DNA from: Desulfotignum sp.
Lineage (GTDB): Bacteria > Desulfobacterota > Desulfobacteria > Desulfobacterales > Desulfobacteraceae
NCBI GenBank assembly: GCA_011390635.1
Contig: JAABSA010000013.1
Location: 1-35,629 of the forward strand
DNA length: 35,629 nt
Reading direction: 5' to 3'
The notes under the pieces are model-generated. The model saw only the letters and a program-made list of their open reading frames with translations. It was not told where the DNA came from and ran no database searches. The position numbers and the translations under genes are program-made. Shown here piece by piece: positions 2,361 through 29,591 of this stretch. Each line of letters begins with the position of its first letter. Within the stretch, counting starts at the first letter, position 1.

Positions 2361-3320
2361 ATGAAGGATCAGTCTTCCGAGGTTTTTCTTCAGAGATCCC
2401 GTGTTTTCAGCGCCATCAGAAAAATCGCCTTTGTGATATTCGCTTTGTTTTTGCTTTATGCACTGGCTGCTGTGGTGTATTCCACCCAGGTGATTTACAA
2501 GGTCAAGCTCAACCATGCCGTGATTCTGGAAAAATTCGGCGGCCAGCGGGATGCGGTCACCGATGTGGGCTGGCATTTCCGGCTGCCGTTTTTCACCCGG
2601 CTGGAATCCCAGGTCACCCTGATGAATCAGAAAATGTATCTGGGGGGATCATCCGGTCCCATCAAAATCATTTCCCAGGAAAATGTGGCCTTGTGGGCCT
2701 CTGCCCTGATGACCTACAGAATAAAAGACCTCAAGGTATGGGGCATTGACAACCTGTCCCCTGAAATCCTGCTCCAGGGGGATTTTGACGGCATTGCAAA
2801 AGACATTCTCCAGGGCGAGCAGGTGAACAAATTGATCAGTGACAGAGAAACCATCAAGGAAGCCATTTTTCAGGCCCTGAAAAAAAGGCCTATCAACAAG
2901 AACGGTCCCACGCTGGAAGAAAAATACGGTATTTCCGTGATCAGTTTTGTGCTCAATGAAACCCGGTTCGGCGAGAAACTGGTGGAAGCCACAGAGGAAA
3001 AAAAGCGGCGACAGCTTATCGCGGAGGCGGAAAACTATGCTGCTGATCAGGAAGCAGACCGGATCCGAAAACTTTACAAAGCATACCTTGAAGGCATTCA
3101 ATCCCTCCACCTGGCCCTGGGCGGTGACAGATCCGCTGCGGTCAGCCCGGCGCTTTTGGACTTTTTATCCCAGCAGAAATGGGCGGATGCCTATGAAAAA
3201 AACCAGACCGACCAGAAAACCTTTGTACTCCACGGCAAAGGTGCGGCACCGGCCCTGACACTGCCGGAAGACAGGGATAACAAGTCTGACCCTGATCCGT
3301 CCGGCCAGTTAATACCATAA
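2361..3320 (+). CDS. membrane-anchored SPFH/band-7 protein (HflC-like)
   Basis: This 319-residue protein has one N-terminal membrane helix (about residues 22-42), then a band-7/SPFH domain (about 45-230) with the typical VILEKFGG and DVGWHFRLPF segments. A charged helical stretch follows (EEKKRRQLIAEAENYAADQEADR), and the C-terminal tail is low-complexity and acidic. This is the HflC/prohibitin plan: a short cytosolic or periplasmic N-terminus, one helix, an oligomerising SPFH domain and a coiled coil. No HflK partner is present. A good AAAGGAG site precedes the ATG. The next gene starts 29 bases later and encodes an AAA+/Lon protease, so the pair is probably co-transcribed. I infer that the SPFH ring scaffolds or gates that protease. 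Confidence 0.8.
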   Translation: MKDQSSEVFLQRSRVFSAIRKIAFVIFALFLLYALAAVVYSTQVIYKVKLNHAVILEKFGGQRDAVTDVGWHFRLPFFTRLESQVTLMNQKMYLGGSSGPIKIISQENVALWASALMTYRIKDLKVWGIDNLSPEILLQGDFDGIAKDILQGEQVNKLISDRETIKEAIFQALKKRPINKNGPTLEEKYGISVISFVLNETRFGEKLVEATEEKKRRQLIAEAENYAADQEADRIRKLYKAYLEGIQSLHLALGGDRSAAVSPALLDFLSQQKWADAYEKNQTDQKTFVLHGKGAAPALTLPEDRDNKSDPDPSGQLIP

Positions 3321-3349
3321 GCGGCACCAATTTTTGGGGAGAAACGGCC

Positions 3350-6300
3350 ATGGCCAAAAGAACCACCAAAGAAAAAATCTATATCACCCTGCCCGAAGAA
3401 ACCATCCAGCAGATCGAATCTTTGGTGACCACATGGACCTATGACACAAAGGTGTTTGTCAGGTCCCGGCTCAACCAGTATAAACCGCCCCATCCCATGA
3501 TTTCCAGCGCCAAAGAATGGTTTCACCTGGTATTTTTCATGCGGCGGAAAAAGAAAAAAATGGCGGTTCTCAATAACCCGAAAGTATTGACCGACTGGAA
3601 AAAGCGGTTTTTATATTCCGGTGAAACCAACCCGGGCGCATCCTGGAACCGGGTCATTGAAAAAGAATTGACAAAGCAGGAATACCATTACCTGATCGCT
3701 GTTCTGGACCGGGAACTCACCGATCTCCATGTGCCTGTGGAACTGGAAAAGACCTTTGAAAAAATTTACCGGGCCCATATCCGCAAGGAGTATATTGAGG
3801 ATCCGGATATTCCCAAGGCCCCCATCGTTATCGTCGAAGGTACTTCAGGCAGCGGCAAAAGCGCCACTGTAAGGGAAACCCTGGAAAAGGTGATATTCAG
3901 AAACGAGGTGATCCCCACCGTGGACTGGAAGCAGAAAAAAGAAGAAATTTTGGCCGGCCACAGCCTGTTCACCAACCTGGAAGATGTGGACCCGGACTTT
4001 GCTGTAAAAATCGCCATAAAGAAAAAACAGCATTTTTACCGCCGCCTGGCCGTGATCCCCGTTCTGCGGCGCATCTTCAAACGCAGGATAATGGAAAATC
4101 TCACCCGGTTTGAAGAGCGGGGCATTGAAGTGGATGCCTCGGTCATCACCCCCAATGATTACCAGACCGCTTTGTCAGGAGAACCCGGCAACTACTTCAA
4201 GCGGGCCATGGGAAGCCCCAAAGTAACCTGTATCCGCCATATCGAAGAAGCACATTCCGCTTTTGGCAAATCTGAAACCGGCCCGGGCATGGGCGGCGGG
4301 GCTGAAAAACAGCAGCGAACCCTGATTGATACCTCCAATATCGTCCTGGATGAAATCATTGACGGCCGGCGGGACTGTTTTGTCATTGCCACCACAGACC
4401 AGACCCATCGGTTTGATTCAGCCATATACCGGCGGTTTGTGGAAAAAGGGGTGATCATCGACATATCCAAATTCTGGATGAACCGGGAAAATTTAAAAAA
4501 AATCATTTTCCTGGAAATCAGGCGGCACCAGATTCCCACCCATTATGATGTCGATTCAGAAGGACTGGACAAAGCTGCAGACAAAATCTACAGCATATTC
4601 AAGGAAAGAAGCCTGAAAATAAGCCCGGCGTATGTGAGAAAACTCATTGAATCCATCATCCATATCCGGGGGGATTTTGTCGTTGATTTCTTACAGAACA
4701 GCATACTGGTCCGGTCGGCATTTGAGCTGGTGGCCAAAAATGTGTATGGAGAACTCTACGGCAAGGTTGTGGATCACATGGACAGAGATGTTCTCTGGGA
4801 CGAATATGTGGGAGATATCAAGGATAAATTCTCGGAGATGGCCAACAACTGCTTCCATTACGGGGTCAGCGAAGACAAGGGCGTGGTGCTCACCGGCCCC
4901 CCGGGCAGCGGTAAAAGCTTTCTGGCGAGAACCTGGCTTTCCTCCAATGCCAACGTCCATGATATCGCCACTTCCCCGTCTGCCCTCCAGGACCCCACCA
5001 GCCCTGTTCACGGTACTGTATCCAATCTGGAAAAGGTTTATGATATCGCGAAAATGATCGCTCCCACCGTGATCTTCTTTGATGAAGGTGATGCCCTGGC
5101 CCCCAAGCGGAGCGCCACCGGGGGACAGCCGTCGGATGTGCTCACCAATAAATTTCTCAACATTATTGACGGGGAAGTCCCTTTGAACAAAGTGTTCACA
5201 GTGCTGACCACAAACCGGCTGGACATTCTTGATCCGGCCCTGATCCGGTCCAAACGGCTTAAAACCCTTGAAATATCAGGTCATATGCGGCAAAAAGATA
5301 TTTTTGATATCATTTCAAAACAATTTGAAAACATGCCCCACCGCAGGGAAGTGGGTGTGGAAAAAATTATCGAAACCGCCCAGGGCCTTTGCAATACCCC
5401 GGCGGATTACACCTCTTTTACCCAAAAAGCCATTGCTTTATGCACCACGGAATTCAAGGTGCTGGTCAAACTGCGGCAGCTGGTCAGATCCACGGAAGGG
5501 GAAAAATATGAATTCATCAAATTGAATTTTAAAACCATCCTGGGTATCCTGGATACGGTAAAAGCCGCCCCTCTGATAAAATCCGCCATAAAAAATGATT
5601 TGAAAAATTTTGGAAGCCAGTATGAAAAAATTTTGGAAAATGTGGCCCATATCACCAGTGAAAAAGACTATCCCCTGGTGGAGACCCACCTGGAATCAGC
5701 CCGGCGGGAAATTTCCCAGAGCCCTGTGCGCAAAGGCTCTGTCCAGCTCAATGAATTCCTTGAAACCGAATTGAGCAAAGAACCCCAGGTAGGATTCATC
5801 ATCGGGGTCGGGGCCAATGACCTCACCGGTATGCTGCTGCCCATTGCCACCAGCCTCACCGGCCGGGTGGAAAATTCTCCCATTATTGTGACGGGCGCGG
5901 TGTCATCATCGGCCCCCAATGCGGCCCAGCTGGACATGGCGGTCCAGATGACCCGCCAGTCTGCCCAGGAAGCGTTGACCATGGTGAAGAACTATATCCA
6001 GGAGCTGTCCCCTGATATCAGTATCCCCTGGGTGTTCGGGGATTTTTTAAAACGGTATTCCCTGCACCACCAGCTGTTGTCCGCCTCCTACAGCGTGGGT
6101 GGTCCGTCTGCCGGATATGCACTGGCATTGAACACCTTGTCAGCCTTGTTGCGGATCCCTTTGTGTATTGATTTCGGGATCACCGGCGCCCCCTGGACCA
6201 AGGGTATCCGAAAAGATGAAGTGGGAGGATCCGTCATCATCGGCGGTCACCGGAAAAAAACGGAAAAAGTTCTTTTGTACCTGCGGCGCATGTATATGCC

Positions 6301-6673
6301 CCTGCAAAACTACAAGGACCTGGAACCTGAATTTCTCATGGGATACTGGCAGCGGCAAAAAGATATCATTGCCGTGACCCATTTTGCCGATCTCATGCCC
6401 GAGGTCCTGTTTTTAGACAAGGCCCACAATGATATGCGCGAAGAACTGATTGAAAAACGCATCGCATACAAAAAAGAAAAATACTATGCTGCCCGCAAGA
6501 CTTCCTCTTTGAAAAAAGAGATTATCCATACCAAATTGTTGATGCGCAGGCGGGCGGAAACAGAAATCCTGCAGCGGGTCGATGCCATCCGTCTGTACCT
6601 GGAAGATCCGGATCGCAAAAGATATATCTCCCATGAAAAGATCTTCACAACCTATATGACAGAATCAGATTGA
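3350..6673 (+). CDS. double-AAA+ ATPase with C-terminal Lon-type protease domain
   Basis: This 1107-residue protein has a basic N-terminal region (about 1-150), a first AAA+ module with Walker A GTSGSGKS (164-171), a Walker-B-like HIEEAH (297-302) and a sensor-like FVIATTD. The second AAA+ module has Walker A GPPGSGKS (516-523), Walker B VIFFDEGD (574-581) and sensor VLTTNR (about 618-623). The C-terminal domain resembles the Lon protease fold: S920 in GGPSAGY is the expected nucleophile, and K973 in TEKVLL sits where E. coli Lon K722 would be. Classical Lon has one AAA+ module and an N-terminal LAN domain, so this architecture is unusual. No membrane helix is obvious. It is preceded by GGGGAG and by the SPFH gene. 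Its 3' end overlaps the convergent gene by 22 bases. Confidence 0.75.
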   Translation: MAKRTTKEKIYITLPEETIQQIESLVTTWTYDTKVFVRSRLNQYKPPHPMISSAKEWFHLVFFMRRKKKKMAVLNNPKVLTDWKKRFLYSGETNPGASWNRVIEKELTKQEYHYLIAVLDRELTDLHVPVELEKTFEKIYRAHIRKEYIEDPDIPKAPIVIVEGTSGSGKSATVRETLEKVIFRNEVIPTVDWKQKKEEILAGHSLFTNLEDVDPDFAVKIAIKKKQHFYRRLAVIPVLRRIFKRRIMENLTRFEERGIEVDASVITPNDYQTALSGEPGNYFKRAMGSPKVTCIRHIEEAHSAFGKSETGPGMGGGAEKQQRTLIDTSNIVLDEIIDGRRDCFVIATTDQTHRFDSAIYRRFVEKGVIIDISKFWMNRENLKKIIFLEIRRHQIPTHYDVDSEGLDKAADKIYSIFKERSLKISPAYVRKLIESIIHIRGDFVVDFLQNSILVRSAFELVAKNVYGELYGKVVDHMDRDVLWDEYVGDIKDKFSEMANNCFHYGVSEDKGVVLTGPPGSGKSFLARTWLSSNANVHDIATSPSALQDPTSPVHGTVSNLEKVYDIAKMIAPTVIFFDEGDALAPKRSATGGQPSDVLTNKFLNIIDGEVPLNKVFTVLTTNRLDILDPALIRSKRLKTLEISGHMRQKDIFDIISKQFENMPHRREVGVEKIIETAQGLCNTPADYTSFTQKAIALCTTEFKVLVKLRQLVRSTEGEKYEFIKLNFKTILGILDTVKAAPLIKSAIKNDLKNFGSQYEKILENVAHITSEKDYPLVETHLESARREISQSPVRKGSVQLNEFLETELSKEPQVGFIIGVGANDLTGMLLPIATSLTGRVENSPIIVTGAVSSSAPNAAQLDMAVQMTRQSAQEALTMVKNYIQELSPDISIPWVFGDFLKRYSLHHQLLSASYSVGGPSAGYALALNTLSALLRIPLCIDFGITGAPWTKGIRKDEVGGSVIIGGHRKKTEKVLLYLRRMYMPLQNYKDLEPEFLMGYWQRQKDIIAVTHFADLMPEVLFLDKAHNDMREELIEKRIAYKKEKYYAARKTSSLKKEIIHTKLLMRRRAETEILQRVDAIRLYLEDPDRKRYISHEKIFTTYMTESD

Positions 6674-7182
6674 TCCTTGCGCAGGGCAACGGGTTTACCG
6701 ATAATTTCCGACCAGACCACAGCCTGGCGAAGGCTGGGCCGTCTGCCATAGGGATGAATGGTTGGCGGGGGCACCTCCTGCTTTTGGCTCGCTTTTTCCG
6801 ATGCCGCAATGGTATCGGGCTGCTTCCGGGGAATGCTTTTGGCAACGGTTTCAGATGATATGGTATCCTGCTCCATCGGAGAGGATGGTTCCTGGTCTGT
6901 CAGGCCCTCTTCTGCCAGTTCATCCCAGAAGCTTGGATCATCTGCATCGTCATTGTCTGTCTGCTGCCTGGTCTGCTGCTGTCTGGCCTGTCTTTCCAGC
7001 TCCTGTAAAGATTCCTGTATCTGATCCCTGATTTTTTGGAAAAAGGAAAACAACGGGTTTCGGGACTGTTTTTTCTGAATCCCGGGCTTTTTTTTCGTTT
7101 TCGATTTCAAGACTCTGACAAGGATGGTAATCAAAAGGAAAAAAAAGACCAGAACAATATTAATGAGGGTTTCCAGATCCAT
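6652..7182 (-). CDS. small membrane-anchored protein linked to floA (unknown function)
   Basis: This 176-residue protein has one N-terminal membrane helix (about 6-24), a basic stop-transfer patch, a Q/E/R-rich probable coiled coil (about 48-75), a long acidic and proline-rich linker, and a conserved-looking C-terminal motif LRQAVVWSEIIGKPVALR at residues 150-167. Short bacterial proteins with an N-terminal helix and a C-terminal LRxAVxWSEIxGxPxALR-like tail occur widely as hypothetical proteins. The tail is probably a docking peptide (inference). AAGGAG lies 4 bases before the ATG. It is last in the nfeD-nfeD-floA operon, separated from floA by a strong hairpin. Its end overlaps the Lon-like gene on the other strand. 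Confidence 0.65.
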   Translation of the reverse strand: MDLETLINIVLVFFFLLITILVRVLKSKTKKKPGIQKKQSRNPLFSFFQKIRDQIQESLQELERQARQQQTRQQTDNDDADDPSFWDELAEEGLTDQEPSSPMEQDTISSETVAKSIPRKQPDTIAASEKASQKQEVPPPTIHPYGRRPSLRQAVVWSEIIGKPVALRKDQSDSVI

Positions 7183-7252: not shown

Positions 7253-8242
7253 TTAAGTGTTCTGATCCTGCTGGCCGGATTCTGTTTCACCCTTGGAGAT
7301 CTGATCCCGCATCCGGGTGTCGGCTGCCACATTTTTCATTCTATAATAGTCCATGATCCCGAGATTACCACTTCTGAACGCTTCCGCCATGGCCAGGGGC
7401 ACCTGGGCTTCGGCCTCCACCACCTTGGCCTGCATCTCCTGGACCCGGGCCCGCATTTCCTGTTCCGTGGCAAAGGCCATGGCCCGTTTTTCTTCGGCCT
7501 TGGCCTGGGCAATTTTCTTGTCTGCCTCAGCCCGGTCGGTTTCCAGTTCCGCTCCGATGTTTTTGCCCACATCCACATCCGCAATATCAATAGACAAAAT
7601 TTCATAGGCGGTGCCGGCATCCAGGCCTTTTTTCAATACGGTCTTGGAAATCATATCCGGGTTTTCCAACACTTTTTTATGGGTCTCAGCCGACCCGATA
7701 GTGGTGACAATGCCCTCTCCCACCCTTGCCAGGATGGTTTCCGCTCCGGCCCCGCCCACCAAGCGGTCAATATTGGCCCGAACCGTGACCCGTGAAATCG
7801 CCTTGAGCTGAATCCCGTCCTTGGCCATGGCCGCAACCAGCGGGGTCTCGATGACCTTGGGATTCACCGACATCTGCACCGCCTCCAGGACATCCCGGCC
7901 GGCCAGATCAATGGCCGCAGCCCGGTTGAAGGTCAGATCAATATTGGCCTTGTCCGCGGCGATAAGGGCCTGGATCACCCGGGAGACATTTCCGCCGGCC
8001 AGAAAATGGGATTCCAGGCTGTCCGTGGGAATTTCCATGCCGGCTTTCACAGCCATGATCTTGGATTCCACGATCAATTTCGGGGGTACTTTTCGAAACC
8101 GCATGAAAATGATATTGATCAGCCCCACTTTGGCACCTGATACCAGGGCCTGCACCCAGAGGGCAATATAGGAAAAAATAAAATAAAACAGGGCCAGGCC
8201 GATAATCCCGGCGATAACTAATAAAATGTACATAAAGTCCAT
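7253..8242 (-). CDS. floA: flotillin-like protein FloA
   Basis: This 329-residue protein is a bacterial flotillin of the FloA/YqfA type, which organises membrane microdomains. An N-terminal hydrophobic hairpin (about 4-35) is followed by the SPFH domain with the FloA-typical segments [38 protein letters not shown] and [23 protein letters not shown]. An A/E/K/Q-rich coiled coil (about 235-290) and a short polar tail complete it. The length matches Bacillus FloA. GGAG precedes the ATG. It follows nfeD-short by 13 bases, the classical NfeD-flotillin arrangement, so it is probably expressed from the promoter upstream of the long nfeD. Confidence 0.93.
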
Positions 8243-8255
8243 AACAGATTTCTCC

Positions 8256-8732
8256 TCATTGGATTTTGTCTACCACAATTCTGTTGCCCGAAACAAGGGT
8301 TACCACAACCCGTGTGCCGGCTTCCACATATTCTCCGTCGGTCACCGCATCCAGGCGTTTTCCATCTATCATGACCATGCCTGAAGGCCGCAGATCCGTT
8401 ATCGCATCGCCTTGCTTTCCCTGCCAGAGTGTCATTTCAGGGGATTGGGAGGCAACCCCTTCCGTGCTGGACAATTTTTTGTGCAGGGACCAGGAAGAAG
8501 CCCCCAGGGCCTTGAATCCCAGGATCAAAACAACGGGTATCAAGACAATATCTCCTCCGAGAAACACCATCCCCATGCCAAAGGAAATGGTGGTGAATAC
8601 CAGATAAAGAGAATACAGCAACATGCCGGCAGCCAAAACCGACAGCAGCCCCAGAGAAGGGATAAAAATTTCCGCCGCAATGACCACCAGCCCCAGCAGT
8701 TGCAGTGCGATGGGCAGTATATAGGCTTTCAT
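8256..8732 (-). CDS. short NfeD-family membrane protein
   Basis: This 158-residue protein has about three hydrophobic segments in residues 5-75, with a pattern typical of NfeD short forms ([21 protein letters not shown]). The C-terminal OB-fold domain runs over about 100-158, with [31 protein letters not shown]. NfeD proteins partner with flotillin-like SPFH proteins in the membrane. Its start overlaps the stop of the long NfeD gene by 4 bases (ATGA), and floA follows closely. Having both long and short NfeD in one operon with FloA is a known arrangement. Confidence 0.85.
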
Positions 8733-10249
8733 GACGGCTCCTTTTCTGATGTCACCATATCCGCAGCCCTTACCAGCACACGGTTTTGCTCAAGGGCATC
8801 CACTGTCACCCGGGTGCCGGGATCCAGAAATTCCCCCCGGGTGATGGCATCAATTTTCCTGGGTCCGATCTTTATTTTTCCCGAAGGCCGCAGAGTGGTC
8901 ACTGCTATCCCCATTTGCCCAACGGTCACATCCCGGGACTCGTTTGATCCCACAACCGCCTCTCCAAGGGTGGCATCCAGATACGGGCCTTTTATCACCC
9001 TTGATATCCCGGGCAACACAAACCGTACCATGAATAAAGAGATCGCCAGTGCCCCCACAAAGGAACCCAGGACCATGGCCAGGTTCCGGATCATCAACCG
9101 TCCCTCCCAGGGCATTTTGGGGTCCGGCACCACAAATCCCTGGAAAGACAGCACCAGGCCTGCAGCCAGCACCAGGATACCGGCAATCCCGGCCACCCCG
9201 AATCCGGGGAGCACAAGGACCTCCACAGCTATAAGCAGGGTGCCGATGAGCAGCAGCAGCAATTCCGTGTAATTGGCCAGGCCCACCAGGTGCTGATTTA
9301 AAAAAACCAGGCCCAGACACAGTATGCCGATAACCCCGAAAACCCCGAATCCCGGGGCTTTGATCTCAGTGTACAGTGCCCCCAGTCCCACCAGCATCAA
9401 AATGGGCAGAATCGGCTGGAGAAACCTTACAAAACTCTCTGACCAGGATTCTGTCATGGACTTGAGTGTGTAGTTTTCATATCCCAGATGGGCAAGGGCC
9501 TGGTCCAGATCTGTTACACTCGCCTTTGAAAACCCCAGATTCAGCGCCTCGGTATCGTCCATGGTCAACAGTTCCCCTTCCGCCACCACGGTCCTTTTTC
9601 TGGTGATCTGATCTTTTTCTTCTTTGGTAAGATCATCAAACCGGACCTTGTCCATATACAGGGTTTCCTCGTTAAAGGTAACCTGATAGACCTCCATGCT
9701 TTTGGTAACCATGGATTCAGCCAGGACTTCAGGATAATTGTTTTTTTTGGCAAGGGCCCGGAACTGTGCCCTCAGAACGGTCTGGGTCTTTTCCCCCATC
9801 TCTTTTTGCCCTTCGCTGGTCTGGATAATTGGGGCGCAGTCCCCGATCAGGGTGTTTTGCTTCATGACCAGGACATTGCCGGCAAGAGCAATGAGGGCAC
9901 CTGCTGAAATGGCTCTCTTTTCCACAAATGAAATGGTTTTTCCCTGGGGAATACCCGAAAGAATATCCACGATATCCAGGGCAGCATCCACCCGTCCGCC
10001 AAATGTGTCCATCTTGAATACAATGGTTGCATCGGCATCTTCTTTATGGATCTCCTCCAGACTTCTTTTGATGAAAGCGGCCATGCCGGGCTCCACTGTG
10101 CCGGTCACCGGGATGACATAGATGGTATTATCATCAGCCGTTACAGGCCGGTTCCCGAAAAAAACAGACAGGGCTCCTGATGCCAGAGCCAGAAACAGAA
10201 CCAACCAGAATCTGCCGGTTTTGCATCTGCTGTTGAAATGTTTTTCCAT
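8729..10249 (-). CDS. long NfeD protein: ClpP-class serine protease with membrane and OB-fold domains
   Basis: This 506-residue protein has a signal peptide or N-terminal helix (about 13-31), a ClpP/crotonase-fold serine protease domain with the aspartate/glycine segment FKMDTFGGRVDAALDIVDIL and the nucleophile S115 in AISAGALIAL, a membrane region of several helices (about 275-415), and a C-terminal NfeD OB fold. This is the membrane-bound NfeD/1510-type protease known to pair with stomatin-like proteins. An ATG 20 codons further upstream exists. I prefer 10249 because the extra residues do not look like a signal peptide, GAGG precedes this ATG, and a good -10 hexamer lies between the two. 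It overlaps nfeD-short by 4 bases. Confidence 0.87.
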   Translation of the reverse strand: MEKHFNSRCKTGRFWLVLFLALASGALSVFFGNRPVTADDNTIYVIPVTGTVEPGMAAFIKRSLEEIHKEDADATIVFKMDTFGGRVDAALDIVDILSGIPQGKTISFVEKRAISAGALIALAGNVLVMKQNTLIGDCAPIIQTSEGQKEMGEKTQTVLRAQFRALAKKNNYPEVLAESMVTKSMEVYQVTFNEETLYMDKVRFDDLTKEEKDQITRKRTVVAEGELLTMDDTEALNLGFSKASVTDLDQALAHLGYENYTLKSMTESWSESFVRFLQPILPILMLVGLGALYTEIKAPGFGVFGVIGILCLGLVFLNQHLVGLANYTELLLLLIGTLLIAVEVLVLPGFGVAGIAGILVLAAGLVLSFQGFVVPDPKMPWEGRLMIRNLAMVLGSFVGALAISLFMVRFVLPGISRVIKGPYLDATLGEAVVGSNESRDVTVGQMGIAVTTLRPSGKIKIGPRKIDAITRGEFLDPGTRVTVDALEQNRVLVRAADMVTSEKEPS

Positions 10250-10292
10250 ACAATGGTTTTCCTCTATGGTGTCATGCCGGTATTGAAGGATC

Positions 10293-10321
10293 AGTATACC
10301 ATGAAACACCGGGTTTTAAAA
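10293..10321 (-). promoter_or_regulatory. candidate promoter of the nfeD-floA operon
   Basis: On the minus strand TATACT (10298-10293) is a strong -10 element. An A/T-rich hexamer, TTTAAA or TTTTAA, lies 16-17 bases upstream. The start would be near 10286, about 37 bases before the ATG at 10249 and downstream of the alternative start at 10309. Confidence 0.5.
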
Positions 10322-27689: not shown

Positions 27690-29591
27690 TTGTTTGAAAA
27701 AAATACCATGTTCTGCATGCTTCAGGCAGCTGCCGTCATTTTTTTCCTGGTCATGGTGTCTTCTTTGCAGGGACAGGCAGCCACCCGGACCATCTCGGTG
27801 CCCATGGCCATGGATTATGACATGCTCGATTCCCTGGCGGCCAACGCCGCATTTACAGGTTCGGAAAAACAGGCAGTACTGGTGAAAGATGCAGACGGTT
27901 GCCAGACTATCCTTGTGTCCGATCCGAGCTTTCGCGAATCAGAGGGAACTCTGTTTCTGGACATGCGCATTCATGTCCGGTACGGTATTTCCGCGGGCAG
28001 TTTCTGCCTGTTTCCCACCTCTTTTGACGGATACCTGGTGACCAGCCAGCAGCCGGTACTGGATCCGGAAACCTGGCAGCTTCGGTTTACCACCCTGTCC
28101 TCCCGCCTGGAAACCCTGGACCGCAAACCGGCCCGGCTGGCGGATTATATCTGGCAGCGGGCCCAGGGGTATCTGCCGGGACTGCTGGACGGTATTGCCA
28201 TCGACCTGGGCATCCCCCGGACTGCGCTTGAAAAATTTCTGACAGCCGTCCTGCCCAAAGACAAACCCGAAGATGTCCTCAGGATTGTTGACAGCCTGCG
28301 GCCCGGCCCGGTTGAAATAGACAAAACCGGTTTATCGTTTCAGCAGCAGGTGGATATTCCGGATACCATTTTTCAGAAATCCGCGCCATCCGCCCCGTCT
28401 GTTTTTTCCCAGATCCATAAACGGGCATTCATCAATGCCTGGGAAACCTGGGATGCCTTCCTGGTTCACCTGATCACCACCTTGTCATCACGGCCTCTGA
28501 CTCCGGATGAACAGCAGATTCTGCTGGATGTCCTGCTGCGGCTGAGGTATGCTTTTTCCCAAGAACTGGACAATCCGGATCCAGGAACGGACGATTTTGT
28601 CCGCAAACAGTTTATCATGAGCTGGAAACTGATGTCCCCGATTTTCAGGCATCACCTCAAGGAATCCGGTACCGATTCCATGCTGGGGTATCTGGCCTTT
28701 TTTTCTGCTGCCGACTCCCTGGTGACCCTGGACCAGCTTGGCCCTTTGCTGGGGCTGGACATCAGCCGGCAGGGGCTGCACCACCTTGCAGCCCTTTTGG
28801 TCGAAGGCAAGGCCCCTTCATTGAACTATGATTCCGATATCTCTCCTGACTTGAAAAGCGCCCTGGGGATCGGGCAGGCCGGGTCAGGGCAGACCGGCTG
28901 GTATTTCAGGCTGAAACAGCTGCCGTGTCTGTATTGCCTGATTTCCGTTACAGCCAGTGCCTGGGCAGATGTTCCAGAAAAACACCTGATGCATGCCCGG
29001 CAATGGCTCCTGAACCAGGAATCACCGGATGTCTATCTTGAAAAAACCACCCGCCTGCTAAAAGAACAGACCCAAAAGAAACTGCAGGATACCCGGATTC
29101 CCGGGAACCGGCATGCCATGTTCCGCCGGACGGTTCTGGCCACTGCGTGGCAGGAAAGCTGTTTCCGGCAATTCATTGAAGCGCAGGGATCCATTATTTA
29201 CCTGCGCTCCTACAACCAGACATCGGTGGGCATCATGCAGATCAATGAACGGGTATGGCGAGGCATATATGATCAGGACAAACTCCGTTGGGATATCGCT
29301 TACAATGTCATGACCGGGTGTGACATCCTTGAACTCTATTTCACCCGGTATGCGGTGCGCTGGATGAAAAATCATCCGGATAGGGCAGTGGATGATGATT
29401 TTCTGGCCGGAATGATCTATGCCATGTACAATGGCGGCCCGAAACACCTGGAAAAATATGTTCAGCACAGCACCGGTTCAGACAACAGCTATCTGAGTGA
29501 CCGGCTTTTCCGGGAAAAATGGGCATGGGTCAAACAGGGGGATCTGAGTCAGATCGGCCGCTGTCTGGCAGGCCGGCCCATACCATTTTGA
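27690..29591 (+). CDS. exported lytic transglycosylase (SLT domain)
   Basis: This 633-residue protein has an N-terminal signal peptide (hydrophobic AAAVIFFLVMVSSLQG, then QAA). A long alpha-helical region of unknown family follows, and then a C-terminal SLT domain (about 470-600) with the catalytic glutamate E489 in AWQESCF, GIMQINERVW and MIYAMYNGGP. It should cleave peptidoglycan in the periplasm. The start is uncertain: the frame opens at TTG 27690, with an ATG at 27708, while the good AGGAGG site (27664-27669) is farther upstream than normal. It is divergent from glnE; DUF2294 follows after 77 bases. Confidence 0.82.
   Translation: MFEKNTMFCMLQAAAVIFFLVMVSSLQGQAATRTISVPMAMDYDMLDSLAANAAFTGSEKQAVLVKDADGCQTILVSDPSFRESEGTLFLDMRIHVRYGISAGSFCLFPTSFDGYLVTSQQPVLDPETWQLRFTTLSSRLETLDRKPARLADYIWQRAQGYLPGLLDGIAIDLGIPRTALEKFLTAVLPKDKPEDVLRIVDSLRPGPVEIDKTGLSFQQQVDIPDTIFQKSAPSAPSVFSQIHKRAFINAWETWDAFLVHLITTLSSRPLTPDEQQILLDVLLRLRYAFSQELDNPDPGTDDFVRKQFIMSWKLMSPIFRHHLKESGTDSMLGYLAFFSAADSLVTLDQLGPLLGLDISRQGLHHLAALLVEGKAPSLNYDSDISPDLKSALGIGQAGSGQTGWYFRLKQLPCLYCLISVTASAWADVPEKHLMHARQWLLNQESPDVYLEKTTRLLKEQTQKKLQDTRIPGNRHAMFRRTVLATAWQESCFRQFIEAQGSIIYLRSYNQTSVGIMQINERVWRGIYDQDKLRWDIAYNVMTGCDILELYFTRYAVRWMKNHPDRAVDDDFLAGMIYAMYNGGPKHLEKYVQHSTGSDNSYLSDRLFREKWAWVKQGDLSQIGRCLAGRPIPF

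Follow-up and report, generated by a model that had tools for sequence, protein, structure and literature searches.

An SPFH membrane protein strictly paired with a predicted tandem AAA–Lon protease in sulfate-reducing bacteria and relatives

What links a membrane SPFH protein to the large ATP-dependent protease encoded directly behind it? The question is raised by a 35,629-nucleotide stretch of a Desulfotignum sp. genome (contig JAABSA010000013.1; G000:C10:1-35629 in our indexing, hereafter the window; the assembly comprises 4.09 Mb in 98 contigs), for which a reading made from the letters alone (the sequence-only reading) had proposed that an SPFH protein and a double-AAA+ Lon-type protease form a membrane-tethered proteolytic machine. 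Both open reading frames (ORFs) were found where that reading had placed them: an SPFH/Band_7 protein of 319 aa (positions 2361–3320, + strand; Pfam PF01145, E 7.4e-16, 59.1 bits against a cut-off of 23.6, in a scan of the window proteins for which the best 25 of 30 families were listed) and, 29 bases after its stop codon, the start of an AAA-AAA-Lon protease of 1107 residues (3350–6673, + strand; profile, structure-model and Foldseek evidence). The pair is real, conserved and inherited as a unit, and we think it somewhat probable that it constitutes a dedicated membrane-associated, SPFH-linked ATP-dependent protease system resembling HflKC–FtsH but having a Lon peptidase fused to a double motor of Cdc48 type.

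The case begins with gene order. Relatives were retrieved from a contig collection by exact peptides of the window protease, a procedure by which divergent members would be missed; 91 stretches matched a pattern, and the 64 that encode a relative represent 63 distinct loci, assigned to Desulfobacterales genera, Desulfobacteraceae, Desulfobacterales, one Desulfarculaceae, Deltaproteobacteria and unplaced Proteobacteria or bacterium (the closest named relatives in this contig search are Desulfotignum, a Desulfobacteraceae genus of the phylum Thermodesulfobacteriota, at 90% identity). In 55 of the 63 the protease gene is immediately preceded, on the same strand, by the SPFH gene; of the others, one locus is fragmentary (L064), and in seven the contig starts inside the protease gene (L026, L052, L054, L055, L058, L059, L060). 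A further 20 of 20 loci from genome searches (L066–L070 and L072–L086, the window's own excluded) are likewise paired, 11 of them being contigs already counted and 9 new. In total, all 64 distinct relative loci with an intact stretch, and the window besides, have the SPFH gene upstream, without exception (two of the 64, L017 and L023, come from one metagenome-assembled genome, and the protease frame of L050 is broken). Divergent members in other families (L074–L076, at 49% identity, and similarly L077, which stands outside the protease alignment) retain the pair. Measured from the conserved protease start in 75 full-length references (the window counted twice and 11 contigs duplicated), the spacing runs from −71 to +148, and the two genes overlap by 1 base (−1) in 14 of the 75. 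The protease gene is single-copy in the window's genome, where the sole further match is a 35% AAA-domain match to another ORF; some relatives have two copies (G442 gives two full-length matches).

Presence and absence across genomes follow the same rule. At a threshold of E <= 1e-30, and in phylum, class and family samples that overlap one another, the protease was found in 12 of 395 genomes of the phylum sample and the SPFH protein in the identical 12; in the class sample the counts were 72 and 66 of 291, and in the family sample 48 and 44 of 86, every SPFH-positive genome falling within the protease-positive set (the first pass of the phylum and class protease searches scored two candidates per genome, so that very divergent members may be missed). 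All nine protease-only genomes (G415, G514, G614, G626, G692 and G694 in the class; G415, G427, G468 and G471 in the family) give partial protease matches alone; of the three inspected, G626 and G694 have the gene cut by the contig end, and G415 holds a decayed protease piece (aa 870–1103 in two segments) beside a FloA–NfeD cluster, its SPFH gene gone. Neither a full-length protease without SPFH nor an SPFH protein without protease was seen in these samples. Adjacency, which could have proved peculiar to this genome, is together with co-occurrence essentially complete in the phylum samples, and with conservation on this scale chance adjacency was rejected. Across 60 non-redundant of 74 loci, distances between pairs of SPFH proteins rise with those between the matching proteases (r = 0.91), a correlation much of which shared species history alone would produce. 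Decayed remnants were recorded as L103 (6203–6915) and L104 (4945–6346) in G415, on one contig, and G418; the latter genome carries a second, broken protease copy besides a full-length copy elsewhere.

The protease was analysed in an alignment of 53 rows (48 distinct sequences), and its regions aa 1–480 and aa 770–1107 were also searched apart. The two complete Walker A motifs of the sequence-only reading are there: GTSGSGKS in the first module, D1 (aa 164–171; 3839–3862, +), and GPPGSGKS in the second, D2 (aa 516–523; 4895–4918, +), with K170 and K522 each invariant in 53/53 rows. D1 (aa 151–480; 3800–4789, +) carries a helical insert at about aa 193–257; PF00004 AAA matches the aa 1–480 region in 30/30 members (best 1.3e-7), and in a PDB profile search with this region most matches were short P-loop ones (best UvrA, 0.0011) and Cdc48 matched weakly (0.09), for which reason we class D1 as divergent. 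D2 (aa 481–740; 4790–5569, +; Cdc48/p97/FtsH type) is matched by Pfam AAA at aa 512–638 (PF00004, 1.8e-26) and has a Walker B motif VIFFDE (aa 574–579; 5069–5086, +) whose D578 and E579 occur in 53/53 rows. Among NCBIfam models over aa 500–764, TIGR01243 (CDC48) ranked first (5.6e-26), ahead of PAN and FtsH, though its 91.1 bits do not reach the CDC48 subfamily cut-off of 802.65; the best PDB relatives by sequence are p97/VCP chains. Judged on these matches, the second ATPase is of Cdc48/p97 type rather than Lon type, and two classical AAA modules are present as in Cdc48/p97.

Behind the motors lies the Lon (S16) protease domain (aa 802–1000; 5753–6349, +), identified by Lon_C, PDB profile, hhalign and Foldseek. 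Lon_C, the sole Pfam family for the C-terminal region of the window protein, barely passes on the full-length chain (aa 802–992, 2e-4, 21.4 against 21.1 bits) and matches the C-terminal region in 30/30 members (27 distinct). NCBIfam Lon models fall in the same part (LonB, 2.4e-9, aa 838–1030; lon, 4.6e-9, aa 753–992), the PDB profile search with aa 770–1107 placed Lon first (1xhk, 9.2e-6; 3k1j, 2.4e-5; 1z0b, 2.6e-5; unrelated chains from E 0.17), and alignment by hhalign with the genome's own four LonA proteins gave a probability of 94.6 (E 6.5e-8, 181 columns). By domain matches, then, the architecture of two motors plus a Lon domain is genuine. A weakly conserved C-terminal extension follows (aa 1001–1107; 6350–6670, +; helical in the model), and near the N-terminus a variable, amphipathic stretch (aa 45–76; 3482–3577, +; hydrophobic moment, helix 49–63 in the model), whose moment was seen in the 18 of 53 rows listed, may possibly bind membrane. 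The LON N-domain is not among the 3 families found for aa 1–480 of the window protein, and the p97 N-domain gave no match there. The description of the protease as soluble also holds: its best 19-residue hydropathy windows (1.41–1.91, 53 rows) all lie below those of the SPFH helix, leaving no transmembrane-like window. An FtsH-type metalloprotease (M41) was rejected on this ground and on the occurrence of HExxH in 0/53 rows.

Conserved residues point to the Ser–Lys dyad of Lon (S16), with one correction to its assignment. The serine proposed from sequence, S920 in GGPSAG (6107–6109, +), is present in 53/53 rows; the lysine proposed with it, K973, gives way to K970 (6257–6259, +), four residues on from GG. 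The lysine of all four LonA proteins (hhalign) falls opposite K970, as does that of M. jannaschii Lon, which we take to be catalytic, and K970 is kept in 53/53 rows against 52/53 for K973 (K969: 51/53); on this alignment and conservation we prefer K970 as the putative dyad lysine. LonA and LonB have exactly 42 residues between Ser and Lys according to the available text of one source (PMC9569914). The assignment agrees with this rule in the four LonA proteins, each with 42, and the window family departs from it, with 49 in 53/53 rows. Besides S920 and K970, K170, E299, E300, R361 and R362 in D1 and K522, D578, E579, N622, R633 and R636 in D2 are invariant. Mean conservation, duplicates included, is 0.85 in the protease domain (40% invariant), 0.78 in D2, 0.73 in D1 and 0.47 in aa 45–76, making the protease domain the most and the N-terminal stretch the least conserved of the regions measured. 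The four LonA genes, all over the family cut-off, lie on contigs C12, C24, C28 and C39.

Structure models extend these assignments. In a Foldseek search of the full-length AlphaFold2 model against PDB, the best 50 rows listed are p97/Cdc48, one row being the tandem AAA protein Rix7, and the alignments span 576–768 columns, which is too long for one module, so that D1 and D2 are both taken as covered. TM-scores are low (0.16–0.26 by query) and rmsd is 14.8–26.5 Å, a combination that we read as differing module orientation in the model; segments below 50 pLDDT are aa 791–867, 903–917 and 943–960. With the C-terminal model (aa 770–1107), Lon proteases fill all of the best 50 rows listed, the best at E 1.2e-6, TM 0.38 by query and 0.60 by target, and rmsd 8.5 Å. 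The Lon_C profile and the modelled Lon fold agree, at moderate model confidence; the Lon fold class of this region is supported by the model, the geometry of the active site is not.

The first gene encodes a membrane SPFH protein, as had been proposed: Band_7 matches 36/36 members of its alignment, and a single N-terminal transmembrane helix (about aa 22–44; 2424–2492, +; best 19-residue hydropathy window 1.95–2.74 in 36 rows), with a cationic tail before it, precedes the SPFH domain (aa 47–232; 2499–3056, +; the Pfam stretch). Under the positive-inside rule the positively charged flank of a helix stays cytosolic. The 15 residues preceding the helix are more positive than the 15 following in 35/36 members and equal in 1; the following flank is positive as well (+2 to +4), which makes the topology call weak. 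With modest certainty, the charge bias weakly suggests a cytosolic tail and a periplasmic SPFH domain, as in HflK/C. A PDB profile search with this protein matched stomatin and QmcA weakly (10 of 12 matches, E 0.002–0.04), and BLASTP to HflK and HflC was weak (6e-4 and 2e-4). Among the Pfam and NCBIfam matches listed, the FloA profile has none to 2361–3320, its match being the neighbour at 7253–8242; the locus holds one SPFH gene and no tandem hflK–hflC arrangement. Two adjacent Band_7 genes resembling HflK/HflC were observed on contig C39 of the same genome.

How does this pair compare with known systems? AAA+ proteases usually combine motor and protease in one of two ways: the protease is fused to a single-ring motor (Lon, FtsH), or it is separate from a motor of one or two rings (ClpAP, Cdc48 with the proteasome). 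Like HflK–HflC/FtsH and prohibitin/m-AAA, the window system ties a one-helix SPFH protein with a predicted periplasmic domain to an ATP-dependent AAA protease; unlike HflKC/FtsH, it has one SPFH gene instead of an hflK–hflC pair, and its protease combines tandem AAA modules with a Lon Ser–Lys domain, having neither HExxH nor a transmembrane-like window. With Lon (MEROPS S16; LonA, LonB, LonC, LonBA) the protease shares a Lon-type domain with Ser–Lys dyad, and with LonA also the Pro before the Ser (an A-type feature in the available text of PMC9569914). It differs from Lon in having two AAA modules instead of one, the second Cdc48-type, a Ser–Lys gap of 49 rather than 42, an extra C-terminal extension and no LON N-domain match. 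The two AAA modules, D2 being closest to CDC48 by HMM, recall Cdc48/p97 and tandem AAA unfoldases, whereas the fused protease domain, the missing p97 N-domain match and a D2 pore loop lacking a conserved aromatic set the window protein apart from Cdc48/p97. As in SPFH–NfeD operons (QmcA–YbbJ, FloA–NfeD1b), an SPFH gene is strictly paired with a protease-type partner, which here is an ATP-dependent AAA–Lon protein, not NfeD.

In the accessible portions of the literature, a 2009 SPFH survey (12 subfamilies, 497 genomes) gives NfeD and FtsH as partners, and neither "Lon" as a whole word nor "Desulf" occurs in the available main text (PMC2636767); "Lon" as a whole word is likewise absent from the available text of a 2026 study of P. 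aeruginosa SPFH proteins (PMC13086221). The Lon_C architectures of a 2008 serine protease survey include LON-AAA-Lon_C and Sigma54_activat-AAA-Lon_C; a tandem AAA-AAA-Lon_C is not in the accessible part of that survey, which took in two deltaproteobacterial genomes (PMC2605481). PMC7159879, which shares the terms, has SPFH in its reference list alone. Among the openly licensed PMC matches listed, no title concerns an SPFH–Lon pair or an AAA-AAA-Lon protein, which is no proof of absence. The domains are known; their combination is not described in the literature examined.

By analogy with these systems, we infer a complex whose hexameric state, ring stacking, physical contact, gating and membrane substrates are all features of a model. 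The 1107-residue protease would assemble as a hexamer in which two stacked AAA+ rings (D1 and D2) pull and unfold the substrate, feeding a Lon-type Ser–Lys peptidase ring made up of those same chains. The SPFH protein would oligomerise in the inner membrane as a ring or dome that confines or gates the protease there, as HflKC encloses and restrains FtsH in the available parts of PMC9020784 and PMC12624060, and selected membrane or membrane-bound proteins would be extracted and then degraded. Contact might occur between the SPFH cytosolic tail and the protease N-terminal region; in the most economical model the cytosolic double-ring protease would be kept at the membrane either by SPFH tails or, within the SPFH ring, by an amphipathic stretch of its own. 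Of the membrane-tethered machine first proposed, adjacency and architecture stand, and the tether is kept as conjecture, the main domains being weakly predicted on opposite sides of the membrane.

Several observations weigh against an SPFH-linked, membrane-associated protease system of this kind. With the SPFH domain predicted (weakly) to be periplasmic and the protease cytosolic, contact between the main domains is left unexplained, and the weak conservation of the SPFH tail (mean 0.57, 5% invariant, though its charge is kept) does little to support a specific docking site. Ordinary threading cannot be taken for granted, since D2 has no conserved aromatic pore-loop residue: its pore loop 1 position (aa 544–556; window 4979–5017) is occupied by LQDPx[NS]PxxG, which is nearly invariant, in place of an aromatic-hydrophobic-Gly loop, and position 553 is V or I in 42/53 rows and W in 5. 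The corresponding place in D1 reads TPNDYQTAL[AS]GEPGN, with L at 275 in 48/53 rows; p97 D1 (KLAGES in the alignment) likewise has no aromatic there. Both models are of moderate confidence (full-length, mean pLDDT 73.9 and pTM 0.54; C-terminal, pLDDT 63.1 and pTM 0.68), and the S920 and K970 loops fall in low-confidence segments. Fisher tests on the three samples give p-values of 4e-23, 6e-59 and 3e-20 that ignore relatedness, and the distribution is patchy (48/86 in the family, 12/395 in the phylum sample), so that this is not a core quality-control system.

The topology prediction and the weakly conserved tail would suit a functionally linked, co-transcribed pair that forms no stable complex, the SPFH protein serving as substrate, membrane-stress sensor or scaffold and the protease as a soluble regulator; there is precedent in Pyrococcus, where a protease, long NfeD, cuts its operon SPFH partner (available text of PMC13086221). 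Strict pairing and joint loss fit physical contact at least equally well, however, and we hold this arrangement rather unlikely. Improbable in our estimate is that the AAA-AAA-Lon protein acts mainly as a p97-like segregase extracting membrane proteins, with a Lon domain that is structural or self-processing and has little proteolytic output, for which RadA-type Lon-like domains offer a parallel. The Foldseek alignments of the full-length model with p97/Cdc48, the departure from the 42-residue spacing and the extension added after the protease domain would all be in keeping with it, but S920 and K970 are kept in every row, and of the regions measured the protease domain shows the highest conservation.

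Patchy presence, the decayed copies in G415 and G418 and PADLOC matches to IetA (5.6e-13), TRIP13 and mads_8 would in turn accord with a defence or conflict module, a membrane SPFH sensor coupled to an AAA protease effector against phages or other elements. These PADLOC matches, however, cover no more than the AAA modules and fall short of the CDC48 match in score; the gene is single-copy in the window's genome, and FloA stands near 14/63 relative loci. Matches covering 80% of the protease were found in 0 of 29 phage and 0 of 352 plasmid matching records (50,697 and 72,556 searched), and a scan of viral contigs returned one AAA-only match. We consider a defence role very improbable. A mobile or viral origin was rejected, as nothing in the phage, plasmid and viral contig collections matched the protease over its full length.

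Other genes accompany the pair only partly, and for this reason we do not count them as part of the SPFH–protease system. Neighbour clustering covered 60 loci, 28 of them deeper, and placed the SPFH gene in 50 (of the other ten, five start inside the protease gene and five result from the ORF-choice rule, not from absence); beyond SPFH and protease the largest neighbour cluster comprises 14 loci, and none is near universal. A PLP-dependent decarboxylase-like gene lies directly upstream (795–2213, +) and is near 14/63 relative loci. Right behind the pair and convergent with it are FloA (Pfam 9.3e-159), NfeD and a long NfeD1b of 526 aa (7253–10309, −), FloA occurring in the examined stretch of 14/63 relative loci, so that two SPFH–protease systems, SPFH–Lon (+) and FloA–NfeD–NfeD1b (−), adjoin in the window. 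Both the decarboxylase-like gene and the FloA–NfeD cluster are shared by some of the nearer relatives and by 0/28 deeper clustered loci, and were rejected as system parts. A 176 aa protein with an N-terminal hydrophobic stretch (6652–7182, −), whose gene end overlaps that of the protease by 22 bases, has no Pfam family over the cut-off among the matches listed; its cluster comprises 14 loci by clustering and 7 by direct BLAST. Farther off, a 633 aa ORF with a TTG start (27690–29591, +) lies between a GlnE gene and a hexapeptide-transferase gene and has no Pfam match at 1e-5. As for expression signals, the good shared promoter of the sequence-only reading comes down to one modest sigma-70-like candidate, TTGACC-17-TATACT (2210–2238, +; consensus scan alone, 10/12; a single site against a mean of 0.3 in shuffles), which overlaps the stop codon of the decarboxylase-like gene. 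Shine-Dalgarno-like motifs were read in the sequence 5′ of the SPFH gene (AAGGAG, 2350–2355, +) and of the protease gene (GGGGAG, 3336–3341, +).

What would the pair mean? A chain that carries two motors and its own Lon domain would be a new AAA+ protease build. We advance tentatively, as a plausible picture, a single-chain bacterial counterpart of Cdc48–proteasome, a Cdc48-type unfoldase of tandem rings with a Lon peptidase chamber of its own, that would dock under an SPFH ring and would extract and destroy membrane proteins within a fenced membrane patch, a third form of SPFH-linked proteolysis beside FtsH and NfeD. As a third strictly co-inherited partner besides these two (the partners given in the available text of PMC2636767), the protease would make the effect of an SPFH ring testable on an unrelated enzyme. 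The system would, moreover, reveal an option for protein quality control that this analysis has so far encountered in sulfate reducers and their relatives alone; the pair looks like an uncharacterised control of protein breakdown at the membrane in some sulfate-reducing bacteria.

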